Virus record (IMG/VR): IMGVR_UViG_3300044904_000056 | Span: 40,041-104,040 of that record | Strand: one strand, 5' to 3' | DNA length: 64,000 bases | Origin: a virus | Shown here: positions 1-40,554 of the stretch, piece after piece | How the letters are laid out: each line of letters starts with the position of its first letter | Numbering within the stretch: position 1 is the first letter of the stretch | Translations under genes and position numbers: made by a program | Notes under the pieces: generated by a model | Database searches by the model: none | Seen by the model: the letters and a program-made list of their open reading frames with translations, nothing else | Told to the model about the DNA's origin: nothing

Positions 1-624
1 TACAACTTCCTGGAGAGTCCGCTTGTCCTTGACTACAATCTGTTCAAATTTCTCCCTGCTGATAGCGTGTTTCGGCGGATAGGCAATCCGCTTCGCTGTC
101 TTCAGCACCTCTAGGAACTGCTTGTAGTTAGCCTCTGTTTTGTTGCGCAGGTACCACGCTGGGTGGAAGGATATGACATACTGCCAAGGCCCTCCGTTCA
201 CGACGTTCCCGTGAAGCTTTAGGACTCCAGTTTTGTTGAGAACACTGCGGAGAGGAGAGGCTCCAAGGAGGATGACTACTTTCGGACGGAGCGAATGTAT
301 TTCACGAAGCAGATGGGGCCGACAGTGATTAATAGCGTAGGCTGGTAGTTTGTTCCCTGGCGGACGGCACCTAGCCGCATTGGTGAAGCGGCATTTCTTC
401 GGGTCAATCCCAACTTCCTCGATAGCTTCCCGGAGAACAAGGCCTGCTTCTCCACACCAAGGGTAGCCATTCTCATCCTCGTGCTCACCAGGCGCTTCCC
501 CGACAAACAGGAATACCGGCTCCTCACTGCCCTCCCCATTCATCTGTGGGGATTTGCAGCCCTTATAGAGCTGGCAAGGCTTGCAAAATCTATCAGGTTG
601 TCGGAGAACGTTGAGACTAAGCAT
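1..624 (-). CDS. Family 4 uracil-DNA glycosylase, probably N-terminal part of a glycosylase-DNA polymerase fusion (partial)
   Basis: The frame is open from an ATG at 624 to the left edge, giving 208 residues with no stop. Residues 42-50 (GEAPGEHED) and 154-160 (HPAWYLR) match the two active-site motifs of 4Fe-4S uracil-DNA glycosylases. Cys14, Cys17, Cys86 and Cys101 fit the cluster ligands. A family 4 enzyme normally ends near residue 175-200. Here the chain continues with a segment (about 186-208) resembling the entry into a DNA-polymerase-I 3'-5' exonuclease domain, so a fusion to PolA is inferred and lies mostly outside the window. The enzyme would remove uracil from DNA. Its start overlaps the stop of the next gene upstream (TAATG). 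The glycosylase call is solid; the fusion is an inference. Confidence 0.85.
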   Translation of the reverse strand, partial: MLSLNVLRQPDRFCKPCQLYKGCKSPQMNGEGSEEPVFLFVGEAPGEHEDENGYPWCGEAGLVLREAIEEVGIDPKKCRFTNAARCRPPGNKLPAYAINHCRPHLLREIHSLRPKVVILLGASPLRSVLNKTGVLKLHGNVVNGGPWQYVISFHPAWYLRNKTEANYKQFLEVLKTAKRIAYPPKHAISREKFEQIVVKDKRTLQEVV

Positions 625-4359: not shown

Positions 4360-4983
4360 TTAATACCCAAGGAACCATCCCCACAACCAAGCTAGAATAG
4401 TTTGTAATCCATCCTGATAAGGGATAACTCTGACATCTGCCCCTACTTCTCTGAGTCTCTTCTCACTACCTAATACGGCCTTGTATTTTGGATAGAGGGA
4501 TTTGTCCGGGTCAACTGGCCGAGGGTCCTTCCGCTGAATCCTGCGCTTTACCATCCGCTGAAGGCACTTCTCTAAGGGGGTATCCATAAAGCCAAATATC
4601 CAATGCGTATGCGGTAGGCTTCTTGCCAGGTCAATCCAACGCTGGGTCAGGGTAGCAGCCAGCGCTCCCTCGAAAACAACATTCCCCCGCCTGGAAAGGT
4701 CTGTGATTGCCTTGGAAGCGTAATCGGCACGGGTGCTGCCCCTGTAATAGCTTTCGTCAATCGCGTCATAGCCGCCCGTTGTTATCCGGTAAGGCCCAAG
4801 CAGGGCTGTCTTCGTAGGCCCTGTATCGAGGACGTAGGCGAGCACCTTTCCATTCCCAGGGTTAATCAGAGGCGTATTGGAAAAGCTCTCTAGAAGGGAT
4901 TTTGCTAGGGTTGTCTTGCCACTGGCATTCGTGCCCCTGATGTTGATGACGATATGCTTCAGCCGAGGAAATCGTTCCGTCAT
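4360..4983 (-). CDS. P-loop kinase, probable 5-hydroxymethyl-dU DNA kinase
   Basis: The Walker A motif GTNASGKTT is at residues 17-25. The rest of the 207 residues has the compact layout of the kinases that phosphorylate 5-hydroxymethyluracil in DNA of thymine-hypermodified phages. An acidic FEGA segment follows the mid region and basic lid residues (KRRIQRKDPRP) lie near 148-158. The assignment rests mainly on context: TS homologue and pyrophosphorylase-family genes lie within 1.6 kb. It could be a generic deoxynucleoside-type kinase. An RFPR tetrapeptide occupies residues 4-7, before the first beta strand. The start overlaps the phosphatase-fold gene by ATGA. Confidence 0.7.
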   Translation of the reverse strand: MTERFPRLKHIVINIRGTNASGKTTLAKSLLESFSNTPLINPGNGKVLAYVLDTGPTKTALLGPYRITTGGYDAIDESYYRGSTRADYASKAITDLSRRGNVVFEGALAATLTQRWIDLARSLPHTHWIFGFMDTPLEKCLQRMVKRRIQRKDPRPVDPDKSLYPKYKAVLGSEKRLREVGADVRVIPYQDGLQTILAWLWGWFLGY

Positions 4984-5423
4984 TTCCCTTTCTCCAGCTT
5001 CGACAGATTCAAAACACCCGACTCGATAACCCGCATTGCCTTCATATAGTCGTCACCCTTGAGAAAGGGCAGGTCCGGTATGCGGATAACGGGAGGCTCC
5101 GCATACGCACCAAGAGGCGAGAACTTCCGCCGATGAGCTGGAAACTTTTTCAACAGCTGCTTGTAATGTACTGGGCTCATATAGATGATGCGGTCAGCCC
5201 ATTCGACCATCTTCTGAGTCACAGGCTTTGACCTTTCGTCCTCCTCTAGATAGTACGCCTGGTTGAGGCTATAGAGAGCCTCCCGGACTTTCTTCGCAAT
5301 GGTTCCCTGGTAGGGGCCTTTTTGCAGCCCTGCCGATTCAACGTTCATCCCGAGGTATCGCCCGATAGCCGCTGCGACCTGAGATCGGGAACGGTTGTTG
5401 GTGCAGATAAAGAGGATACGCAC
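4980..5423 (-). CDS. Low-molecular-weight protein tyrosine phosphatase-fold protein
   Basis: The protein begins with a beta strand and the CX5R loop CTNNRSR (Cys7 to Arg13). IPDLPF places a general-acid Asp at 117. This is the arrangement of low-molecular-weight phosphatases and the related arsenate reductases. At 147 residues it has normal family length. The GTG start at 5423 is preceded by AAGGGAG. The gene is coupled to the kinase by a 4-base overlap, so it may remove phosphate from a nucleotide intermediate or from a host protein. The substrate cannot be told from the sequence. Confidence 0.75.
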   Translation of the reverse strand: MRILFICTNNRSRSQVAAAIGRYLGMNVESAGLQKGPYQGTIAKKVREALYSLNQAYYLEEDERSKPVTQKMVEWADRIIYMSPVHYKQLLKKFPAHRRKFSPLGAYAEPPVIRIPDLPFLKGDDYMKAMRVIESGVLNLSKLEKGK

Positions 5424-5570
5424 TGTGCTTTCGACTCCCTTCTAGGCCCGACTGGTTTTAGGCCAGCCTATTGTTGGTAGCGGACCCAACTAGCCAGTGG
5501 CAGGGTGCTAGCAGAGTTCGTTTACGTGGGGATATAGCTAAACTGGTGTAAAGGCTAGTTTTGAGCCCTG

Positions 5571-6182
5571 CTAGGGGCCTATCCGGGGGAAGCGTAGGGG
5601 GCCAGTCCTCCTGGCCCTGACTATTAGCTCAACAGTAGCCTTCAGCTTCTCCGCTGGGTGAAAGTAGAAGAACTTAGCTTGGGCCGAGAAGATAGGTATA
5701 TGCCGCCACTTCCTAGCCGGAGGCTTCGCATAGCTCACGACCTCCATCCCCGCTAGCATCTCGTTCACACGTTCCCGGTGTTTTTGGACAAGGGCGTAGG
5801 GCTGTTCTAGGTAGAACCAGCAGCCCGGATATTGCAGCCACTGTCGGATATTCCAATGGTCCTGGGTATGCTCCGTCTGCTGAAGGGGAGCCACCCCTAG
5901 AGGCAGAATCACCGTAGAGTCCGGAGGGGGCCAAGTGTGGACTGGCTTGAGCATCTCTTTCCAATCGCAATCTCCTCCAATATAGTTGTATCCTTGCCAG
6001 TAAGCACCTACAGCATCGGCGTAAGTCTCCGCATCCCGCAGGGAGTTCTTCTTCACAGGGACCATAGTCAGAATGGTAACCTGCTTGCCTTCCTGAATCC
6101 ACTGCTCGATATGAGCCCCTAGCGAAAGGAAGGCATCATCACTGTGAGGCTCTACGATAACCAGGCGGTCATTTATGGGCAC
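5571..6182 (-). CDS. PIG-L/LmbE-family N-deacetylase
   Basis: PHSDDAFLSLG near residues 12-22 is the metal-binding PHxDD signature of the family that deacetylates N-acetylglucosamine conjugates. His124-type ligands are likely in the EHTQDHWNIR segment, the usual second His motif. I choose GTG 6182 (203 residues) because GGAGG lies seven bases before it. A longer reading would overlap the methyltransferase gene by 50 bases. The C-terminus carries RFPR four residues before the end. Next to hypermodification genes, it may deacetylate a sugar added to DNA or to the virion. Confidence 0.8.
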   Translation of the reverse strand: MPINDRLVIVEPHSDDAFLSLGAHIEQWIQEGKQVTILTMVPVKKNSLRDAETYADAVGAYWQGYNYIGGDCDWKEMLKPVHTWPPPDSTVILPLGVAPLQQTEHTQDHWNIRQWLQYPGCWFYLEQPYALVQKHRERVNEMLAGMEVVSYAKPPARKWRHIPIFSAQAKFFYFHPAEKLKATVELIVRARRTGPLRFPRIGP

Positions 6183-6774
6183 GTTTCGGCCTCCGGAAGA
6201 CGCTGAGATGCCGCCCATACCAGTTGGAAGTAATTCTTTCGTCAGCTAATATCGCTTCGCACAACTCCTTGGTGACCTTCTTTTCAAAGGTGAATCCGGC
6301 AAGCACAAATAGTTGCCGCCAATAGCCTTTAGGCTTGCAGTTCACGTGGTACCGGCCCCATTCAGAAGAGTCGATGGACAGGAGCACCCATTTTGAGGAG
6401 AGCCGTTTCACCGTATCCACTAAGACTTTCTCAGAGGACTCCGGGATGTGCTCGAATACATCCCACGAGGTTACCAGGTCAAATTTTTTGTCCAAATGGA
6501 AGGACTTTGATAGGTCGTGGGCTATGTATTTCGCTCCTTCCGCGAATCTGCTGTTGAACTCAGAACCATCCACCCCATAAGCCCTTACTCCTAGCTCTGA
6601 CAGCCGATTCACAAACGACATCGTACCACAACCCAGGTCAATGCAACGCTTGGGGTGAAATCTGTTGAAGATGAGCTCTGCTAGATATTTCGAGGACACG
6701 TGGGGTCCTTTTGTGGACCTGGTGCGATTTTTGAACCACTTCAGTGGATAGAGTTCACTTAGCTTTTCTTCCAT
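6169..6774 (-). CDS. Class I SAM-dependent methyltransferase
   Basis: CIDLGCGTMSFV is the SAM-binding motif I. An acidic residue ends the next strand (YGVDGS), and FDLVTSWDVFEHI is the typical motif of small-molecule methyltransferases of the Methyltransf_11/23 type. At 201 residues it is a stand-alone catalytic domain. No target-recognition region typical of DNA cytosine or adenine methylases is visible. It overlaps the deacetylase by 14 bases and the upstream HNH gene by 16. A sugar or base-adduct substrate is plausible. Confidence 0.75.
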   Translation of the reverse strand: MEEKLSELYPLKWFKNRTRSTKGPHVSSKYLAELIFNRFHPKRCIDLGCGTMSFVNRLSELGVRAYGVDGSEFNSRFAEGAKYIAHDLSKSFHLDKKFDLVTSWDVFEHIPESSEKVLVDTVKRLSSKWVLLSIDSSEWGRYHVNCKPKGYWRQLFVLAGFTFEKKVTKELCEAILADERITSNWYGRHLSVFRRPKRAHK

Positions 6775-12347: not shown

Positions 12348-12634
12348 CCCCTCTTGTGCTCCTTCTGCCGTAGGAACTCTACTAAATTTTCAGTGTGCTT
12401 GCAGACGTGTGGAACTGCGTTCAGGACGGCCAGAGGCGCACGAAATTGTCCTTCAGGGCAGGTACAGAATTCGATTTGCTGACGGGTCTTGGCGTTGACG
12501 AGCAGAGTGCAGTAATAAGTCTTGCCTGAATCCCCGCTCGTTATTTTGTAGATGAATGCTGCCCAATCCTCCGGAAGTCCTAATTTCACATCATCCCGGA
12601 GCTGGACTTGGTCATACTTCCAGAGTTTAGACAT
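12344..12634 (-). CDS. SWIM-type zinc finger protein
   Basis: The protein carries CTC...VCKH, the CxCx(n)CxH arrangement of SWIM domains, near residues 58-82 counted from ATG 12634. That start has GGAG nine bases upstream and gives 96 residues. A longer reading to 12694 would overlap the upstream gene for 68 bases. SWIM domains bind DNA or proteins in recombination and repair factors. No partner domain is present. Confidence 0.7.
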   Translation of the reverse strand: MSKLWKYDQVQLRDDVKLGLPEDWAAFIYKITSGDSGKTYYCTLLVNAKTRQQIEFCTCPEGQFRAPLAVLNAVPHVCKHTENLVEFLRQKEHKRG

Positions 12635-12818
12635 TGATGGTACTCCTTCGCTGGTCGTAGTTGTAGAGGATGGCCTGAAAGACAAGCCTTGCAACTTCCT
12701 GGTTCTCTAAGGCAAGGTTGAAGACTTTGTCAAAGGACTTCTCATCATTCGCCTGGAGACTCCTAACAAGGCACTCAAATACAAACTTCTCCCAGCTCCT
12801 CATCGTCTCTGTCCTCAT
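12627..12818 (-). CDS. Small helical hypothetical protein, 63 residues
   Basis: It is a single helical-looking domain (WEKFVFECLVRSLQAND, then FNLALENQEVARLVFQAILYNY) with no recognised family. The ATG at 12818 has GGGAG upstream. It overlaps both neighbours by 4-8 bases, which supports a real, coupled gene. Confidence 0.6.
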   Translation of the reverse strand: MRTETMRSWEKFVFECLVRSLQANDEKSFDKVFNLALENQEVARLVFQAILYNYDQRRSTINV

Positions 12819-13108
12819 TGCTTCTCTCCCTTGAGGTCTCGGGAGTCGTACTCCGCTGAGATGTATTGTTTGAGACAGGTTAGGTTCCCATCAGAGCCTT
12901 CAATCAACCACCAGAAGTCCTGCATCTCTCGCACCATCTCTTCCATCTCCTCAAGCTCCTCTCTCCCACTTGCTACTGAGAAGATTCGCTGGAGTCCAAG
13001 CGGTGTCGGTTTGGAAACTAGAGGAGCAAGAAGGCGCAGACCAGCCCGTACATCCCACAGGCCTGCACGGATTCTCGAAAGCTTCTCACGGTTACTTAGC
13101 CTTGGCAC
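12815..13108 (-). CDS. Small helical hypothetical protein, 97 residues
   Basis: The GTG start at 13108 lies within the end of the upstream gene. The protein is basic at the N-terminus (PRLSNREKLSRIRAGL), then has an acidic coiled-coil-like stretch (REELEEMEEMVREMQDFWWLIEG) and a C-terminal half with one Cys. No family is recognised. Confidence 0.6.
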   Translation of the reverse strand: MPRLSNREKLSRIRAGLWDVRAGLRLLAPLVSKPTPLGLQRIFSVASGREELEEMEEMVREMQDFWWLIEGSDGNLTCLKQYISAEYDSRDLKGEKQ

Positions 13109-13301
13109 GGTACGCCTCCTCCCGCTGCTTTAGCTTTAGCAGGTCATCTTCCAATCCTAGGGCCTTCGCAATCCGCAGGTAGACCTCACTCACAGTCGTA
13201 TCCGCTAAGTGGATAGCTTCGCCTCCCGGAACGTTCTTGCCGTCCTCAAAGGCGTCTATCCGGATGCGGACCATCCTCCGGGGTTTCTCTACTACTCTCA
13301 T
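13092..13301 (-). CDS. Small hypothetical protein, 69 residues
   Basis: The N-terminus is basic (RVVEKPRRMVRIRI), followed by an alpha/beta-looking region and a Lys-rich C-terminal helix. The ATG at 13301 follows GAAAGGAAGG. It overlaps the next gene by 17 bases. No function can be assigned. Confidence 0.55.
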   Translation of the reverse strand: MRVVEKPRRMVRIRIDAFEDGKNVPGGEAIHLADTTVSEVYLRIAKALGLEDDLLKLKQREEAYRAKAK

Positions 13302-13395
13302 AGCAACCTTCCTTTCAAGCCCTCCTCAGGAGAGGCTGAACGACCCACTTTACAGACGATTTGAGCTGGTCTAGAGGCTAGGATAGGGCTTCCCC

Positions 13396-14193: not shown

Positions 14194-15576
14194 TCAATTC
14201 ACCTTCTCTTTCGGAATTGGTTTAACTTCTGGAGTTGAGGCCGGGGGAAGAGTTGTTGCATCAGCAGGGACGGACAGGACGTGCCCGCCTTCGATGGAGA
14301 GTTTCATCATCAGGTCAACATCAGCCTGCTTTGTATTCGGAGAGTGGAGGCGCTGCATTCCGCGTTCAGGGGAGATGTAGAACATATCACCTTTCCCGAG
14401 GAGGTGTTCCGCCCCCTTGCAGTTCAGGATGGTCTTACTATCTGCTGAGGACGGGACTCGGAATGCTGCGCGAGCCGGGAAGTTGACCTTGATCTTGCCG
14501 GAAACAACATCCACAGATGGGCGCTGCGTTGCAGCTATCACGTGGATACCGGCAGCGCGGGACATTGCCGATATTTGGGCCATCTTATCGGTGAAGGACT
14601 TCTTCTCTGACAGAACGAGGTCTGCCATCTCATCGATGACGACGACAATATAAGGCCAGCAGTCATCGGGCTTTCCTTCCGCCTTCATCTTGTCGTTGTA
14701 CTCCTTGAGGTTCTTACACTTGAACCCGAAGAGGTTGGAAGTCCTACGGCGCATTTCCTGAATCAGCCTCTCCATAATCGAGAGGGCGTCATAGACTCCA
14801 GCAACCGGGGGCTGCATCAGGTGAGGCAGGCCTTGGTAGTGGAAGAGTTCCACGGACTTTGGGTCAATCAGGACCAGCTTCATCTGCTTCGGGGTACGCA
14901 TGTAGAGGAGAGAGGTTAGGATACCGTTGATCCAAACGGATTTGCCTGCGCCTGTTGAGCCTGCGATAAGTAGGTGAGGCATCCTCGTTAGGTCCTCTAC
15001 ATAGGGCTGACCGTTGGACTGGACTCCGAAGTTGATCGGCAGTTCCATATCGTCCCTGTGGGCGATTGCGGCCCCTAGGCAGTCCGCAAATTGGATCTCC
15101 GTTCTCTCCTTATTCGGTACAGAAATAGCAACCGCACTCTTGCCGTGAAGCCTCTGGATGGAGACATCTTCCGCTGCTAGACCAATGGCTAGGTCCTCGT
15201 TAATGTCCTTGATTCTCCGGAGCCGGGTATAGCGGTCAGGGCTGAACTCATACTCCGTAACGATAGGACCAACGCGGATATCCGTAACCTTCCCAGGACA
15301 ATCGAAGTCGCGGGTGCGGGTCGTTATGATATCCACTACCTTCTGCTGTTCGGGGTTGGCAGCTAGTTCCCGAGGGAATCGCTGGACGCCCTTTGGGTAG
15401 GCTTTCTTGCCCTTCTCTAGTCCTTCCTTCTCTGGGTCGTACTTATCGATGAGATTCCCGCAGAGCAGGCAGCGCCTATAAAGGGTATAACGGGAAATGG
15501 AAACAGCATCCTTTCCACCTACACCTTTACAGCCTCGACAAATCGCCAGCTTGAAGCCGTTCGTATGATCCTTCAT
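14194..15576 (-). CDS. FtsK/SpoIIIE-type DNA translocase ATPase
   Basis: From ATG 15576 (AGGAGAAGAG upstream) the 460 residues contain: a zinc finger (Cys13/Cys16, Cys36/Cys39), a linker with RFPR at 66-69, an FtsK alpha-like domain (about 75-165), Walker A GSTGAGKS at 206-213, LVLIDPKSVEL, the Walker B strand IVVVIDEMADLV, and IHVIAATQRPSVDVVSGKIKVNFPARAAFRV, a hallmark FtsK segment. There are no transmembrane helices and no gamma domain, so it is a soluble translocase. It probably moves phage DNA or clears it of proteins. It is not a terminase. Confidence 0.9.
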   Translation of the reverse strand: MKDHTNGFKLAICRGCKGVGGKDAVSISRYTLYRRCLLCGNLIDKYDPEKEGLEKGKKAYPKGVQRFPRELAANPEQQKVVDIITTRTRDFDCPGKVTDIRVGPIVTEYEFSPDRYTRLRRIKDINEDLAIGLAAEDVSIQRLHGKSAVAISVPNKERTEIQFADCLGAAIAHRDDMELPINFGVQSNGQPYVEDLTRMPHLLIAGSTGAGKSVWINGILTSLLYMRTPKQMKLVLIDPKSVELFHYQGLPHLMQPPVAGVYDALSIMERLIQEMRRRTSNLFGFKCKNLKEYNDKMKAEGKPDDCWPYIVVVIDEMADLVLSEKKSFTDKMAQISAMSRAAGIHVIAATQRPSVDVVSGKIKVNFPARAAFRVPSSADSKTILNCKGAEHLLGKGDMFYISPERGMQRLHSPNTKQADVDLMMKLSIEGGHVLSVPADATTLPPASTPEVKPIPKEKVN

Positions 15577-15601
15577 TCTCTCTTCTCCTTGCCCAGAGAC
15601 C

Positions 15602-15799
15602 CTAAAGGGTACTCGGGCGTTTCTTAACCTGAGCACTGCCTATGTCAATCACCTTCCTACTACTCTGGCAGATCGGACAACGATTCCAATGGTCATACCA
15701 CTGCAAAGTCGCGGCGATAAACCCGCCTATGGAGTTGTCCAGACGGTTTACCCTTTTCACTAGCCTGTTCTCAACTCGACATCGGCGGCTTTGCACCAT
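15602..15799 (-). CDS. Small basic protein with a CPIC motif
   Basis: The protein has 65 residues with Arg-rich ends and a central CPICQSS that could be half a zinc site. The ATG at 15799 has GGAGG eight bases upstream. It sits 25 bases before the translocase gene. No family is recognised. Confidence 0.5.
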   Translation of the reverse strand: MVQSRRCRVENRLVKRVNRLDNSIGGFIAATLQWYDHWNRCPICQSSRKVIDIGSAQVKKRPSTL

Positions 15800-15836: not shown

Positions 15837-16058
15837 TTAGTCGTTGTAGACAGTAAGCATCACGCCGCAACGGCAGCGTCCCTGCCACATCGAGACTTTC
15901 GTCTGCCGGGTTGTCTGGAATGGTTTCAGTTCAGGGATTAGTTTCTTGCAGCACGGAGCAGCCAGCGGGACTCGGCTCTGCTCTAGGTCAGATAGCTTGC
16001 AGGAATAGGAGCCGTCTTTGTTGAGTTGCCAGACTTGTATTTGAGTAGTTTCGTTCAC
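15837..16058 (-). CDS. Small Cys-rich hypothetical protein
   Basis: The 73-residue product has Cys at SCKL, PCC and CRC positions, compatible with one structural zinc. The start overlaps the stop of the upstream gene (ATGA-type), which supports its reality. No function can be assigned. Confidence 0.6.
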   Translation of the reverse strand: MNETTQIQVWQLNKDGSYSCKLSDLEQSRVPLAAPCCKKLIPELKPFQTTRQTKVSMWQGRCRCGVMLTVYND

Positions 16059-16786
16059 GGCTTCCTCGCTTTCCGGACGTACACCAAGTTGCCATTCGCG
16101 TCCTGAACAGCTATGACTTCAGTCTTAGAAGGATTAGCAGCCTTGGCTTTCGCTGCTTCTTCCTGCGCCTTCCGGGCAGCCTCTGCTATCGAGACACGGT
16201 TGTTAGCTAGACTGAGGGCTTGAAGGTTTGCCAAACGCTGCGCCTCCTCGATAGTGACGATAAGGTTAGGGCCAGACCAAGGGGAGTCATTAGTGCTTCC
16301 CCGCTCTGCTGGCTGTACGGGTCCGTGGCTGTAGGGATGGGGGCCTTCTGGCTTATAGACTGACTTCACGTTCTTGACGAGGCTGTTAGCCGAGTTGTTC
16401 CCCCAATCCGATGCCTGATTGATTGTTCCTGCATCGTTGAGAGACTGAACGTTCTGAGCCCCCGCATTGGAGGGAAGAACTGCAAAGAGAACTGCGACTG
16501 CTAGAATTGCGGATTTCATTTTCGAGTTTCCTTTCTGAATTGTTTTCTCCCACTCAATCACCAGGTTGTTCGTTTCCATACTGCCTGTCTCAGTCCTAGT
16601 CAAAGTTGTCTGCAACTTTTTGTTGTGGAGGAAACCTTGATAGGTTCTACCATCTAGTAATACCAGGACTTGGCCGGTAGGCACTACAAGTTCTGTCCGG
16701 CCATTCACCCAGTGAAACCGTACCAAACCACCGGAGTCTAATACTAGCTGAACGTCCTTCAGGAATGCCTTCAGGTTGTTTTTCAT
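16055..16786 (-). CDS. Two-part protein: N-terminal cytoplasmic segment and an internal signal-peptide protein
   Basis: The continuous frame gives 243 residues. The first 88 look like a small soluble domain (VRFHWVNGRTELVVPTGQVLVLLDG). An internal ATG at 16519, preceded by GAAAGGAAAC, starts a textbook signal peptide (MKSAILAVAVLFAVLPSNAGA, with cleavage likely before QN). A 135-residue exported portion follows, with Asn/Ser-rich sequence and an Ala/Lys coiled coil (AEAARKAQEEAAKAKAAN). The two parts probably work as separate proteins, the second made from the internal start. The full-length start at 16786 has GGAGGAGG. Confidence 0.65.
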   Translation of the reverse strand: MKNNLKAFLKDVQLVLDSGGLVRFHWVNGRTELVVPTGQVLVLLDGRTYQGFLHNKKLQTTLTRTETGSMETNNLVIEWEKTIQKGNSKMKSAILAVAVLFAVLPSNAGAQNVQSLNDAGTINQASDWGNNSANSLVKNVKSVYKPEGPHPYSHGPVQPAERGSTNDSPWSGPNLIVTIEEAQRLANLQALSLANNRVSIAEAARKAQEEAAKAKAANPSKTEVIAVQDANGNLVYVRKARKP

Positions 16787-17475
16787 TTCAGGCCTCCTCC
16801 ACTTGTCAGATTCAAGCTAGACAGCGGCTAGGATGCTCTCCTGAAAGTCTCTTGTTGCATTTCAGACGGCGCGATACAGAACGCGCCCAGATAACAAGAG
16901 TGCCTACTCTCAGATAGGCATTCAGAGCACCCGAGTCGCTGGACGGAGACGTTCCTAGCAAACTGCCTGCGGTATCCTCTTTCGAGGGCCTGATCTCCGT
17001 CTGCGCTGTTAGTGTTAGTGTTTGTAAAACTAGGTTCCACGCAGATTCACCTATACTTCGTTTTTACGTCCGTTCTGTCGGACGGTGGTAATATCTCGGG
17101 CCACCACGCCTAACCCTTTTGGATTCCTGGCTGGCTCTTTTTCCTCCGGAGAGGTATTTGTATGTTGAGCCGAGGTTCCGCACTCGAAAGTCCTTACGCG
17201 CCCTACTCGTGTACAGCGAATACAGGAGGGTTCAGACAGGCTACTCGGAAGGCTTTCGAGACTCCTACGCTTTACGGTTTGAAGTATTCGCAACCCGGTT
17301 CAACGTCAACCCTCGACTTTCCCTGTTCGGTATTTCCGCTATGCAGGCCATAAGCCATACGCGAAAAGGAGCCTAGCCCCCGAGACCGTCGTCGGTGGGG
17401 CAGAGGGTATATAAAGGATGTAGCTGAATCGGTGGAGGTGGGAACTCTCTACGGGGGAAACCCCCGTGCTACCTA
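16787..17475 (-). ncRNA. Gene-free stretch dense in hairpins (candidate structured RNA)
   Basis: No convincing protein frame or tRNA was found. Perfect stems include GGCGCG/CGCGCC (16868-16873 with 16882-16887), TGCCTA/TAGGCA (16901-16906 with 16915-16920) and CGTCCG/CGGACG (17067-17072 with 17079-17084). An 8-bp helix (16942-16949 with 16994-17001) encloses a GAAA-capped CCTC/GAGG hairpin (16976-16987). The region also holds the leader of the 16055-16786 gene. Strand and boundaries are assumed from gene direction. Confidence 0.35.
17451..17467 (-). terminator. Strong hairpin after the 52-residue gene
   Basis: A perfect 7-bp GC stem (ACGGGGG/CCCCCGT) with a 3-base loop starts nine bases after the stop at 17476. 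No U-tract follows on the minus strand, so termination would have to be factor-assisted, or the hairpin serves as a 3' barrier. Confidence 0.45.
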
Positions 17476-17634
17476 CTACGCAGCGGTAGCCTGCCGGATA
17501 ATCTGTTTCGCCGTCCGGATGACCTGTACGGGGGTCATGTGCTTGATTCCCCGCTTCCCGTGGCGGACCTTCGCAAATCCGCGAACGAGGGCACCCGTAA
17601 GAACGAGACCAGAATTTTTGGAATTGGTTTTCAT
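17476..17634 (-). CDS. Small basic protein, 52 residues
   Basis: The ATG at 17634 has an excellent AGGAGA site six bases upstream, immediately after a GGGTGA/TCACCC hairpin. The frame ends with TAG at 17476, with another TAG directly in phase. The product is basic (FAKVRHGKRGIKH near 20-32) with a C-terminal helix (PVQVIRTAKQIIRQATAA). It has no known family. It is alone inside a 1.3-kb hairpin-rich region and could be an RNA-binding partner of that region, which is only a guess. Confidence 0.65.
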   Translation of the reverse strand: MKTNSKNSGLVLTGALVRGFAKVRHGKRGIKHMTPVQVIRTAKQIIRQATAA

Positions 17635-18088
17635 AACGTCTCCTAGGGTGATGGTTTCACCCGTAGAGAATTCCGTCTCCTACTTCTCCGCGATATGGGG
17701 TAACTCGAATTGCTTTCTCTCCCGAGGCTGTTCCCCGCCTACTCCTTCCGCCGTTTCCGAGCTAAAAAGCTCTACGCGGTAGGACTCTAGGAGAGGCCGT
17801 CCGGAACGTCTCCGGGGCCTCGGGCTTTACTTACTTTCGGCTTTGCGTCCTTAATGCCCTAGCGTTTTTCGCTCCGGTCGGACTATTTTAGGTTAGTCCG
17901 TTAGGAGGTTCTCTCCTATGTCCGTGGCCTATCCCCGCTCTGCCTTTTCGGGATACCCTTTATTTTTCAATGAGCAAAAGCTAGCGTCTAAACTCTAGCT
18001 TACAGGAATATCTTCCCCTTTTTAGAGGTAGAAGTAAAGCACTATTTTCCAGTACTTTCGTTTGAGTTACCCCCTAAAAAGCCTGGGA
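17635..18088 (-). ncRNA. Candidate large structured noncoding RNA
   Basis: No protein frame is supported. Consecutive perfect stems are visible: GGGTGA/TCACCC beside the 52-residue gene, an 8-bp long-range helix (17721-17728 with 17817-17824) enclosing GAGCT/AGCTC (17759-17763 with 17768-17772), AGCG/CGCT (17861-17873), CGGACTA/TAGTCCG (17879-17885 with 17894-17900), TAGGAG/CTCCTA (17902-17907 with 17913-17918) and AAGCTAG/CTAGCTT (about 17979-18002). Size and setting recall phage-borne large RNAs such as GOLLD and ROOL, but I cannot show sequence homology. Confidence 0.35.
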
Positions 18089-18802
18089 TTATGCAGAATT
18101 TCTGTTGGCGTTCCAACAAAAAATAAACCTGTCAAAGTGAGGGTTGAATTTACCCCCCGCTGCCCCCCGGTCAAATTCTGGTGGGTAAAAAACGTTGTTA
18201 AAGCATCTTTTTAGGTATTCAAGCCTACGCATTACATTCTTCACTCCTGCTTTCTTCTCTCTGGAAAAATGGTATTCCATCACGAGTTTGTTACAACATG
18301 GAATCAATTCGTCATCCAACAACCCAAACTCGCTCCCTTCAACATCCATCTTCACCCCATCGAATATTCTCCCTGCAAAGAAATTTGCGTGTAAATTCGG
18401 AAGCCTCCCAGAAGGGTGTTCAGGCAAATTCCCTTTCACAATTGTTGCCCTGCTGAAATCTGTTTCTCTCCTCCCTTTGTAAAATTGTAGGGAGGATTTA
18501 TGGAGATTCGTTATAGCAAATCTACGACAGCAAAATTCAGGAATATTCAAACGGAGGAGTCGAAAGCATTTTGGGTCAGGTTCATAGCATTCAGCCTTTG
18601 CTCCAAGAGAACGACAATATAATGCAAACGCTCCGATGTTTGCACCCAAATCTAACCATAATTCACCCTCCTCAACATCAAAGCCAAGTCCCACTCTCCG
18701 GTAGCACCTCTTCACTAGACACTCATTTAGAACACTCTCATCACTTGTCCCTGGACGAAAATACGCCTCCTCTAAACCAAATTTTCTCTTCTCAATTTTC
18801 AT
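18089..18802 (-). CDS. FkbM-family methyltransferase
   Basis: LWLDLGANIGAFALYCRSLGA and AECYEPDP form the SAM site typical of FkbM enzymes. DGVKMDVEGSEFGLL is the family's second signature. FkbM proteins O-methylate sugars or lipids, so the gene belongs functionally with the glycan island near 42-53 kb although it lies in the replication block. It is 237 residues long. Its start directly follows the next gene's stop. Confidence 0.85.
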   Translation of the reverse strand: MKIEKRKFGLEEAYFRPGTSDESVLNECLVKRCYRRVGLGFDVEEGELWLDLGANIGAFALYCRSLGAKAECYEPDPKCFRLLRLNIPEFCCRRFAITNLHKSSLQFYKGRRETDFSRATIVKGNLPEHPSGRLPNLHANFFAGRIFDGVKMDVEGSEFGLLDDELIPCCNKLVMEYHFSREKKAGVKNVMRRLEYLKRCFNNVFYPPEFDRGAAGGKFNPHFDRFIFCWNANRNSA

Positions 18803-19096
18803 TCAACTTCCCCACTTCTGGAGGAGCTTTCGTATTCTCACTCCCTGAGGACCTAGAAAATAAGGCTCTAGGCATTCCAAGAATTCCTTTGCATTTTGGC
18901 CATAGAGGCGTACTCTTTCTCGGCAACTTTCTCCTTTTCCAGTTTTACGGTAGCCCCCTCCAAAATAAGTATGCACTAGTTTTGGAAAAAAGGGTTTCAT
19001 ATTCAATTCCACAAATCCTTTTCGGACGAATGCGCGCGACAGAACTACTCCTGCAAGAAGTGTTCTCAATTCCAAAGTCATCTTCTCTCTCATCAT
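18803..19096 (-). CDS. LAGLIDADG-like half-domain protein
   Basis: The 97-residue protein has the order expected of one LAGLIDADG repeat: a hydrophobic first helix (LLAGVVLSRAFVRKGFVEL), strands, then VHTYFGGGYRKT and a RVRLYGQNAKEFLECLEPYF segment ending near LLQKW. The helix lacks the canonical catalytic acid, so it may be an inactive or regulatory derivative. The start overlaps the primase stop (ATGA). The assignment is by pattern only. Confidence 0.45.
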   Translation of the reverse strand: MMREKMTLELRTLLAGVVLSRAFVRKGFVELNMKPFFPKLVHTYFGGGYRKTGKGESCRERVRLYGQNAKEFLECLEPYFLGPQGVRIRKLLQKWGS

Positions 19097-22103: not shown

Positions 22104-22401
22104 TCGCACCTCTAGGATAAAAATAAATTTTTACTGCTAAAACAGGTATCAAACTAGTATCAAACCCCTACAAAACAGGTAAAGCCAATCGAGAGAAACC
22201 TACCCTAGCCATATCAAATCCCCTTCAAACCCCCTTCAAGCCCTTTCAAACCCCTCCAACTCTAGGTATTTTCCTGCCTATATAGCCGATATCGGCGTAA
22301 CAGCTACTATAGCGAATAGTAGCGTATATATCAAATAGTAGAGAATAGCAGCGAGCGTAGCGAGCTGCCTTCACACTGGCACTGTTGGAATTTTCCTACC
22401 T
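22104..22401. other. Candidate replication origin: iterons and hairpins, no gene
   Basis: Repeats of the form (A)GGGGNTTGA, read on the minus strand, recur at 10-11-base spacing in 22212-22255, with two more TTTGA copies at 22149-22168. A perfect 8-bp hairpin (GCTACTAT/ATAGTAGC, 22303-22310 with 22316-22323), a GCCGATATCGGC palindrome and an AT-rich block at 22123-22140 complete an origin-like layout. AGGTAGGAAAATT and AGGCAGGAAAATA form a further direct repeat. The flanking genes are helicases and primase. Confidence 0.5.
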
Positions 22402-22710
22402 TCACTCTTTCGCAATTCTCAACCCAGCAAGATTGATGCGCTGCTGTTCCTTATCATCGAGCATATTGAAGTCACTTTCAAGCCTTCTCACCTCCCGGAA
22501 CATAGGAGCAATCCTTCTAATCATCTCTAGCTCGTGCAATTCACCAATGATGGTATTGGCTATATGGTTGATGACCTCCCCCTCATTCAACAGGATTGTC
22601 TGCTTTGTTTCCAAATTAGCAGTGATGAAATTTGCTTCCTTACACTCATCAAAGCACCTTTCTATCAGACTCTGAAGCTCATAGCTAGTCACTACAGTCT
22701 TTGTTGTCAC
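22402..22710 (-). CDS. Hypothetical helical protein, 102 residues
   Basis: It is mostly amphipathic helix (SYELQSLIERCFDECKEANF, GEVINHIANTIIGELHELEMIRRIAPMF, VRRLESDFNMLDDKEQQRI), suggesting an oligomeric coiled-coil protein. No family is recognised. It overlaps the SF2 helicase gene's stop by 4 bases. Confidence 0.6.
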   Translation of the reverse strand: MTTKTVVTSYELQSLIERCFDECKEANFITANLETKQTILLNEGEVINHIANTIIGELHELEMIRRIAPMFREVRRLESDFNMLDDKEQQRINLAGLRIAKE

Positions 22711-39825: not shown

Positions 39826-40554
39826 TCAACGCTGCGGCGTCACAGGGGGGAGCACAAACCCAGTGAAGGAAGTAGCAGGTTTGTAAGCTCTGCCTTGACT
39901 TTTGTAGTAGTCATCCCTTGCATTCAATCCGCTCTTCTCAAGCTTTACAGCGCGCTTATCGAAAGCCTCCGCCATCTGGGACGGACTGAAACTCTGATCC
40001 CCTGCTGAAATATCGTAACGGGTAGCAAATCTCTGCGCGAGAGCCTCTGCTGCCATTGAAGCAGCAAGCTGGGTAATCGCATCAAATAGCCCGTCAGGAA
40101 TATCAGCTGGTGCTGTTCCCCCAGTTGGCAATTGGAAGCTACCTGAAATGGTAGAGGCCCCAACATAGTAGAGAGTAAAGCTAATCTTGTTCGCAGCAGA
40201 GCAGAGATAGCGGTCCCATTCAAGGTCGTCAAACCAGGTGTAGTTGAAATCCACCGCAAGCGAATCTTCCTCAAGAGGAGCAGTCGCAAATATGATCTGT
40301 CCATTCTTGGGGTTTGGTACGGTGTAGCCTACGTTGAAAGTCAGAGGGGAGCCATCAACGTAAGCCTTCGGAAAGATTGTCGGGCTGGACGCAGGATAGA
40401 TTACCAGCCGCCCACCAACAATGCTGAATATCGTGTTCGTGCCGTCCTGGTTGCCCTGGAGGTCTGTAAACTGAGAGACAAATTTGGAATCGTACCAATC
40501 GTCAATCAGCCTCCGGGCCGCATCGATTCCATTTTGCTGGTTGTATTGTGGCAC
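39826..40554 (-). CDS. Head-tail connector-like protein, 242 residues
   Basis: It has an N-terminal helix (NGIDAARRLIDDWYDSKFVSQ), a central beta barrel-like region and a helical segment (FDAITQLAASMAAEALAQRF) similar to adaptor proteins. It is first of the joining genes after the membrane protein. No specific family is recognised. Confidence 0.5.
   Translation of the reverse strand: MPQYNQQNGIDAARRLIDDWYDSKFVSQFTDLQGNQDGTNTIFSIVGGRLVIYPASSPTIFPKAYVDGSPLTFNVGYTVPNPKNGQIIFATAPLEEDSLAVDFNYTWFDDLEWDRYLCSAANKISFTLYYVGASTISGSFQLPTGGTAPADIPDGLFDAITQLAASMAAEALAQRFATRYDISAGDQSFSPSQMAEAFDKRAVKLEKSGLNARDDYYKSQGRAYKPATSFTGFVLPPVTPQR

Follow-up and report, generated by a model that had tools for sequence, protein, structure and literature searches.

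The closest described counterparts of the RNA considered here are GOLLD (RF02032) and ROOL (RF03087), which form RNA-only cages in vitro. To our knowledge, giant phage RNAs such as these have no known function. GOLLD is a very large phage RNA with a conserved 3' part, a more variable 5' part and a variable insert between them (PMC12286853). It often occurs near tRNA genes, and this is not a strict requirement of the family. Two further systems bear comparison: HEARO (RF02033), an RNA that works with IsrB, and the ~800-nt noncoding RNA of phage ICP1, a large RNA that occupies an ORF-less space without tRNAs (PMC7567579).

We analysed a 64,000-nucleotide stretch (the window; positions 40,041 to 104,040 of IMG/VR record IMGVR_UViG_3300044904_000056) of a 104-kb phage record in which nearly every gene is on the minus strand. 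An initial sequence-only reading had proposed that positions 16787-18088 encode a large RNA resembling GOLLD or ROOL, with no visible match to a known RNA. The resemblance holds in part. Like GOLLD, the predicted RNA is very large, belongs to a phage, and has a conserved 3' part, a more variable 5' part and a variable insert; with ROOL it shares the phage setting, the size class and a variable linker. It differs from GOLLD in carrying ORFs rather than tRNAs in its variable stem and in having an rRNA-type leader, and from both in its surroundings: neither the window nor the remainder of the record, covered except for 40 bases, contains a tRNA gene, and none lies close to the related RNAs. The tRNA neighbourhood common for GOLLD and the tRNA island of ROOL are both lacking. 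An HNH-like ORF lies inside the RNA in one member of the new family, recalling HEARO, but the ORF is small and optional and the RNA is about three times longer. The ICP1 RNA has no boxA-like leader, and no likeness was apparent on reading, without a formal alignment.

Database models did not match either. Rfam searches at curated gathering thresholds returned nothing in the window, and lax Rfam scans of the region and its relatives gave only chance matches. The GOLLD covariance model found no match at E <= 10 in six records, and its controls scored only below the cut-off. The ROOL model gave no match, but the control genomes of that search gave none either; full Rfam scans also returned no ROOL. 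The HEARO model did not match.

The region comprises 1302 bases between two minus-strand genes, and the only plausible gene in it is a minus-strand ORF of 52 aa (Table 1). The two other wide gaps that were inspected between long ORFs, 12348-13395 and 22110-22706, turn out to be occupied by small ORFs; this one is not, which bears out the description of a 1.3-kb gap with one 52-codon gene in an otherwise nearly gapless genome. The region is real, and both helices that had been named are present in the window sequence. No strand had been named, and the rRNA-type leader, the ORF-bearing stem and the LAGLIDADG neighbour were absent from that first description. The candidate RNA lies on the minus strand, on which the promoter-like site, boxA, the ORF and the homology all agree.

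Table 1. Features of the RNA locus and its flanks, in window coordinates, listed from 5' to 3' along the minus strand
Feature	Position	Strand	Remarks
97-aa LAGLIDADG-fold protein without catalytic Asp	18803..19096	-	5' of RNA; methyltransferase gene lies between in the window
FkbM-type methyltransferase gene	18089-18802		flank 5' of RNA
Promoter-like site	18010..18038	-	-35 TTTACT (18033-18038), 17-nt spacer, -10 GAAGAT (18010-18015)
BoxB-like hairpin AAGCTAG/CTAGCTT	17978..18001	-	just 5' of boxA; arms differ among the five RNAs
BoxA-like sequence GCTCATTGAAAAATAA	17960..17975	-	same position in five loci, aligned
ORF-enclosing helix, 5' arm	17660..17674	-	pairs with 17441..17455
Hairpin GGGTG-AAACCAT-CACCC	17646..17662	-	just before the Shine-Dalgarno sequence of the ORF
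52-aa ORF, very basic (pI 12), in apical loop	17476..17634	-	has Shine-Dalgarno sequence
ORF-enclosing long helix, 3' arm	17441..17455	-	pairs with 17660-17674, 15/15 pairs in the window
Hairpin H (CGTCCG/CGGACG), then TAAAA	17067..17084	-	28/28 pairs in five RNAs, swapped arms 74%
Helix A, 5' arm	16994..17001	-	8/8 pairs with changes on both sides
Conserved core TCAGGCCC-hairpin B (GAAA loop)-GGATACCGCA...CTAGGAA	16952..16993	-	near-invariant in window, L002, L003, L004
Helix A, 3' arm	16942..16949	-	8/8 pairs with changes on both sides
Invariant motif (C/T)AGCGAC	16935..16941	-	GGCGAC in L051
Helix C, 5' arm	16924..16932	-	9-10 bp in all five, 49/49 pairs; 4 both-sided changes among four
Helix C, 3' arm	16831..16839	-	pairs with 16924..16932
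Terminal hairpin F (CCGCT.../...AGTGG)	16799..16827	-	kept in all five, hardly varies
243-aa gene, unknown function	16055-16786		flank 3' of RNA

Counterparts of the region were identified between the helicase/primase genes and FtsK in four other phage contigs. Two (L002 and L003) were found via the FtsK protein, L004 via a pattern from the conserved 3' part, and L051 via a helicase alignment. Where compared, the helicase, primase and FtsK proteins of these relatives are 44-67% identical to those of the window. Each contig has the order helicase, primase, a protein of ~100 aa and an ORF-poor region of 1.1 to 1.5 kb; FtsK follows directly or some small genes later. Local DNA matches (blastn) connect all five regions. 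In the window's phage, as in its relatives, an FtsK/SpoIIIE-like translocase gene (14194-15636) lies downstream of the RNA.

No DNA similarity to the region was found in cultured phages or plasmids, and pattern scans of viral contigs returned no members outside the same core set; the extra matches of a relaxed scan, like the two matches in a scan of 84,980 species genomes, were chance matches in coding sequence. Single-protein searches with the 52-aa ORF and with the helicase found nothing. The RNA most likely represents a family that is not in Rfam, with three clear relatives and a fourth, L051, that is more divergent.

Peptides translated from the region match the relatives about equally in sense and antisense frames, so that conservation is at the nucleotide rather than the protein level, and a coding explanation was rejected. 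Protein-coding constraint across the region, which would have refuted an RNA, is thus absent. The folding energy of the region is only modestly unusual compared with neighbouring genes (mean z of about -1 for 150-nt pieces versus about 0 to -0.6 in neighbouring coding DNA), and the case for a structured RNA therefore rests on covariation, not on energy.

Covariation is clearest in the 3' domain, which can be aligned in four of the five RNAs (the window, L002, L003 and L004) and comprises helices A, B, C and F, with 23 base pairs. All 92 cells of this four-member alignment are standard pairs, and 12 of the 23 pairs have changes on both sides, including every pair of helix A (8/8) and four of the nine of helix C. 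None of 500 shuffles reached the observed pairing and covariation, and partners slid out of register pair at only 39-48%. For this count variable loops were trimmed, as was one outer pair of helix A in L003 and L004. The structure was named from the same sequences, which biases the percentage paired upward; the both-sided changes are the stronger evidence. In shuffled anchored zones the summed log10 p was -10 for helix A (four RNAs) and -15 for helix C (five RNAs). When arms were exchanged between phages, partners from another phage paired less well, except in hairpin F, which hardly varies; the arms in this comparison had been picked by eye because they pair. An additional pairing around helix C (CAGCG/CGCTG) was dropped, as it competes with hairpin F.

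The helix proposed at 16942-16949/16994-17001, helix A, reads GACGGAGA/TCTCCGTC on the minus strand and encloses the GAAA-capped hairpin CCTC-GAAA-GAGG, as had been described; it covaries at all of its pairs in the relatives. The long-range helix proposed at 17721-17728/17817-17824 is present in the window as CCCGAGGC/GCCTCGGG, but it could not be placed in the relatives. The covariance across related phages that was to be checked is thus present in the 3' domain of four members. We consider this domain, as aligned, a well-supported conserved base-paired structure, and covariation together with the absence of coding constraint supports the proposal of a large structured phage noncoding RNA, albeit without transcript data. 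That the region encodes a structured RNA of some kind we hold to be nearly certain.

The status of L051 is different. Helices A, C and F and the GGCGAC motif occur in the same order, and the conserved core between the arms of helix A is replaced by other sequence. A covariance model built from the four-member core did not find L051 on the sense strand. Its membership rests on leader similarity, synteny and layout, the 3' core motif not being shared. In L004, the core module ATACCGCA...CTAGGAA seems partly duplicated at 458-520 (minus strand), nested in hairpin B.

Each of the five regions opens with hexamers resembling a -35 and a -10, set 17 nt apart, followed by a hairpin and then, 33-45 nt after the -10, by a boxA-like sequence. 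The promoter-like site, with positions read by eye, is in the same place in each, with mostly TTKACW-like -35 hexamers and -10 hexamers of the form NANNNT. TATAAT is matched poorly by the -10 of the window, and well by those of L002 (TATGAT) and L004 (TACAAT). The boxB-like hairpin forms 39 of 39 pairs with its own arms and 45% with swapped arms in the five RNAs; in a shuffle test the log10 p summed over the five was -8, and for the window alone p was 0.13. The boxA-like sequence has the form G[TC]TC[AT]TTGAAAAA in the five regions. A looser motif, [GC][TC]TC[AT]TTGA[AC]AA, occurs once per locus in the five phage loci, each time at the leader, with one additional match in the rest of the window's phage. 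The boxA of the window, CTCATTGAAAA, has one change from the others, and the -10 and boxA of the window are the weakest copies.

The same order of promoter, hairpin and boxA is found in the E. coli rrnB P2 leader (TTGACT, TATTAT, a GCCGCT/AGCGGC hairpin, and boxA GCTCTTTAACA 38 nt after the -10), although the RNA that follows the phage leader is not rRNA by Rfam. The gamma-proteobacterial boxA is GYTCTTTAANA (PMC5725501). The core of the phage sequence is CTTTGAAAA, versus CTTTAACA in a bacterial rRNA operon leader. In the phage sequence a G replaces the first A, which we take to be a form also present in Bacillus rRNA leaders. A boxA prevents the Rho-dependent repression that a long noncoding insert would cause (PMC4807359), and the contribution of Nus factors at rRNA is mainly to folding (PMC5725501). 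By analogy, the rRNA-style layout suggests that the phage borrows the host machinery for making rRNA; support for the leader itself comes from where its elements lie and how they are spaced. The RNA is very probably its own transcription unit, in the absence of transcript data, and the boxA is likely to be functional, NusB/NusE binding being inferred without binding data.

Between the leader and the 3' domain lies a long helix that encloses the ORF. In L003, L004 and L051 its arms differ from those of the window yet remain complementary; in L002 the equivalent is a plain 9-bp hairpin without an ORF. Over the set, 67 of 68 pairs form with own arms and 57% when arms are swapped. The loop encodes a 51-aa peptide in L003, weakly similar to that of the window, 32 aa in L051 and a 97-aa protein with weak HNH matches in L004. 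A small hairpin and a Shine-Dalgarno-like sequence precede all four loop ORFs, the hairpin being read by eye at the equivalent place in L003 (GGGCG/CGCCC), L004 and L051. The HNH-like protein of L004 shares 69% identity with the product of a stand-alone gene that L051 carries downstream of its RNA, and the loop therefore seems to accept mobile genes. Comparison of the five sequences shows that the content of the predicted apical stem varies, from one small ORF or another to no ORF at all. At 17441-17467 in the window, a hairpin that follows the ORF, ACGGGGGTTTCCCCCGT, shares bases with the 3' arm of the enclosing helix, and such an overlap also occurs in L003 and L051. As the two pairings use the same bases they exclude each other, and perhaps they form a switch between translated and untranslated states.

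In all five phages a homologue of the 97-aa protein is encoded before the RNA. The window's phage alone has the FkbM-type methyltransferase gene between the two, possibly as a recent insertion. The predicted structure of the L002 member, to which the other four were aligned, has a single-motif LAGLIDADG fold (pLDDT 91) that matches I-CvuI with Z 12.1 and rmsd 2.4 over 90 aligned residues. Other fold matches include the bI3 maturase 2ab5 (Z 8.8), 1p8k (Z 8.4) and WhiA (8dy9_I, Z 9.2), and a profile of the five proteins weakly finds I-MsoI and I-CreI by sequence. In the alignment all five have Arg in place of the catalytic Asp, I-CreI D20, a position assigned from the I-CreI motif and the residue offset in the structure match. 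Pfam did not recognise the protein, and the PHROGs label of the matched family, HNH endonuclease, was set aside as at odds with the predicted fold.

A protein without its catalytic residue beside an RNA invites comparison with LAGLIDADG maturases, and also with the DNA-binding regulator WhiA. Binding of this protein to the RNA is at present doubtful, in the absence of binding data. Alternatively, like WhiA of Actinobacteria it could be a regulator that binds DNA, here the promoter of the RNA, a proposal compatible with our main reading of the RNA. The WhiA match and the position of the gene 5' of the promoter in all five phages favour such a role, but maturases of the same fold bind RNA, and we regard it as somewhat unlikely.

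Taken together, we favour a new family of large phage noncoding RNAs that is made with host Nus factors and acts as a scaffold in trans, a reading to which we assign a probability of roughly 60%; its limits are five members, no transcript data and unknown hosts. The minus strand from about 18003 to 16799 would produce a structured RNA of about 1.0-1.2 kb. Since the promoter-like site, boxB-like hairpin and boxA are ordered and spaced as in a bacterial rRNA operon, the polymerase would acquire host NusB/NusE (S10) and their partners, which would take it through the long untranslated transcript and aid folding of the RNA. The RNA may then work in trans as a scaffold, either alone, as GOLLD and ROOL cages might suggest, or as an RNA-protein particle. 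The candidate partners are the upstream LAGLIDADG protein and perhaps the basic peptide from the RNA's own loop. For this last step, the scaffold in trans, we see even odds; it is inferred, and nothing shows oligomers or a protein partner. Also conceivable, and rather unlikely, is that the system descends from a mobile intron or homing protein that has been domesticated, with a kilobase RNA made via a copied rRNA leader and assembled with the Asp-to-Arg LAGLIDADG protein, its apical loop serving as a dock for hitch-hiking genes.

This family offers two handles that we did not find described for GOLLD or ROOL in the literature searched: the rRNA-like leader and a conserved LAGLIDADG-fold candidate partner. 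The leader provides a testable account of how a phage could make and fold a kilobase of untranslated RNA. If the partner were confirmed, the function of such an RNA could be approached directly by pull-down of the LAGLIDADG protein.

The 3' end raises the question of whether the RNA is instead a very long regulatory 5' leader of the gene that follows. Hairpin F adjoins the Shine-Dalgarno sequence of that gene, an intrinsic terminator was not found at the 3' end of the RNA, and the RNA is contiguous with the next gene in the window, L003, L004 and L051; a leader role is therefore not excluded. However, the phages have different genes at this point: FtsK in L002, an 82-aa protein in L003 and a 67-aa Cys-rich protein in L004. 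This argues for a free-standing RNA, and the conserved layout, a kilobase long, far exceeds the needs of a switch. We consider a leader improbable.

ORFs in peripheral loops and LAGLIDADG proteins are the classic company of group I introns, which LAGLIDADG maturases help to fold. The HNH-like loop ORF of L004 with its free-standing L051 homologue, together with the upstream protein of the five phages, whose LAGLIDADG fold lacks the catalytic Asp and has intron splicing factors (2ab5, 1p8k) among its matches, could thus indicate a mobile self-splicing intron or its domesticated remnant. Against this, the Intron_gpI model had no match at the RNA in any of the records, and neither group I nor group II models matched at relaxed thresholds, whereas the same group I model did give a sub-cutoff hit elsewhere in the phage of L004. 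There is also no split gene, the flanking genes vary between phages, and about 1 kb, leaving out the ORF, is long for a group I intron; we find this origin quite improbable. The sub-cutoff hit lies in L063, from the phage of L004, at contig positions 34010-34267 on the minus strand (28.9 bits, E 7e-7). A 12-nt likeness between L002 and a segment of a group I intron is not kept in the other RNAs and was discarded.

A DNA-level element such as a replication origin is very improbable: the region adjoins helicase and primase genes and has many inverted repeats, but arms that lie far apart change in a compensatory way, the minus-strand reading includes G-U pairs, and promoter, boxA and ORF share one strand, all of which are features of RNA.

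The helicase alignment that found L051 also found L052 and L054. Despite their synteny these two were not counted as members of the noncoding RNA family, as they have no boxA, no blastn link and no model match. After the primase, L054 has a syntenic 2.3-kb ORF-poor region (4380-6660), and L052 ends in the same stretch. This region lacks a boxA but has a promoter-like site, three small ORFs and numerous hairpins, one of them long and preceded by CCAGCGAC; it is possibly a distant relative of the RNA.
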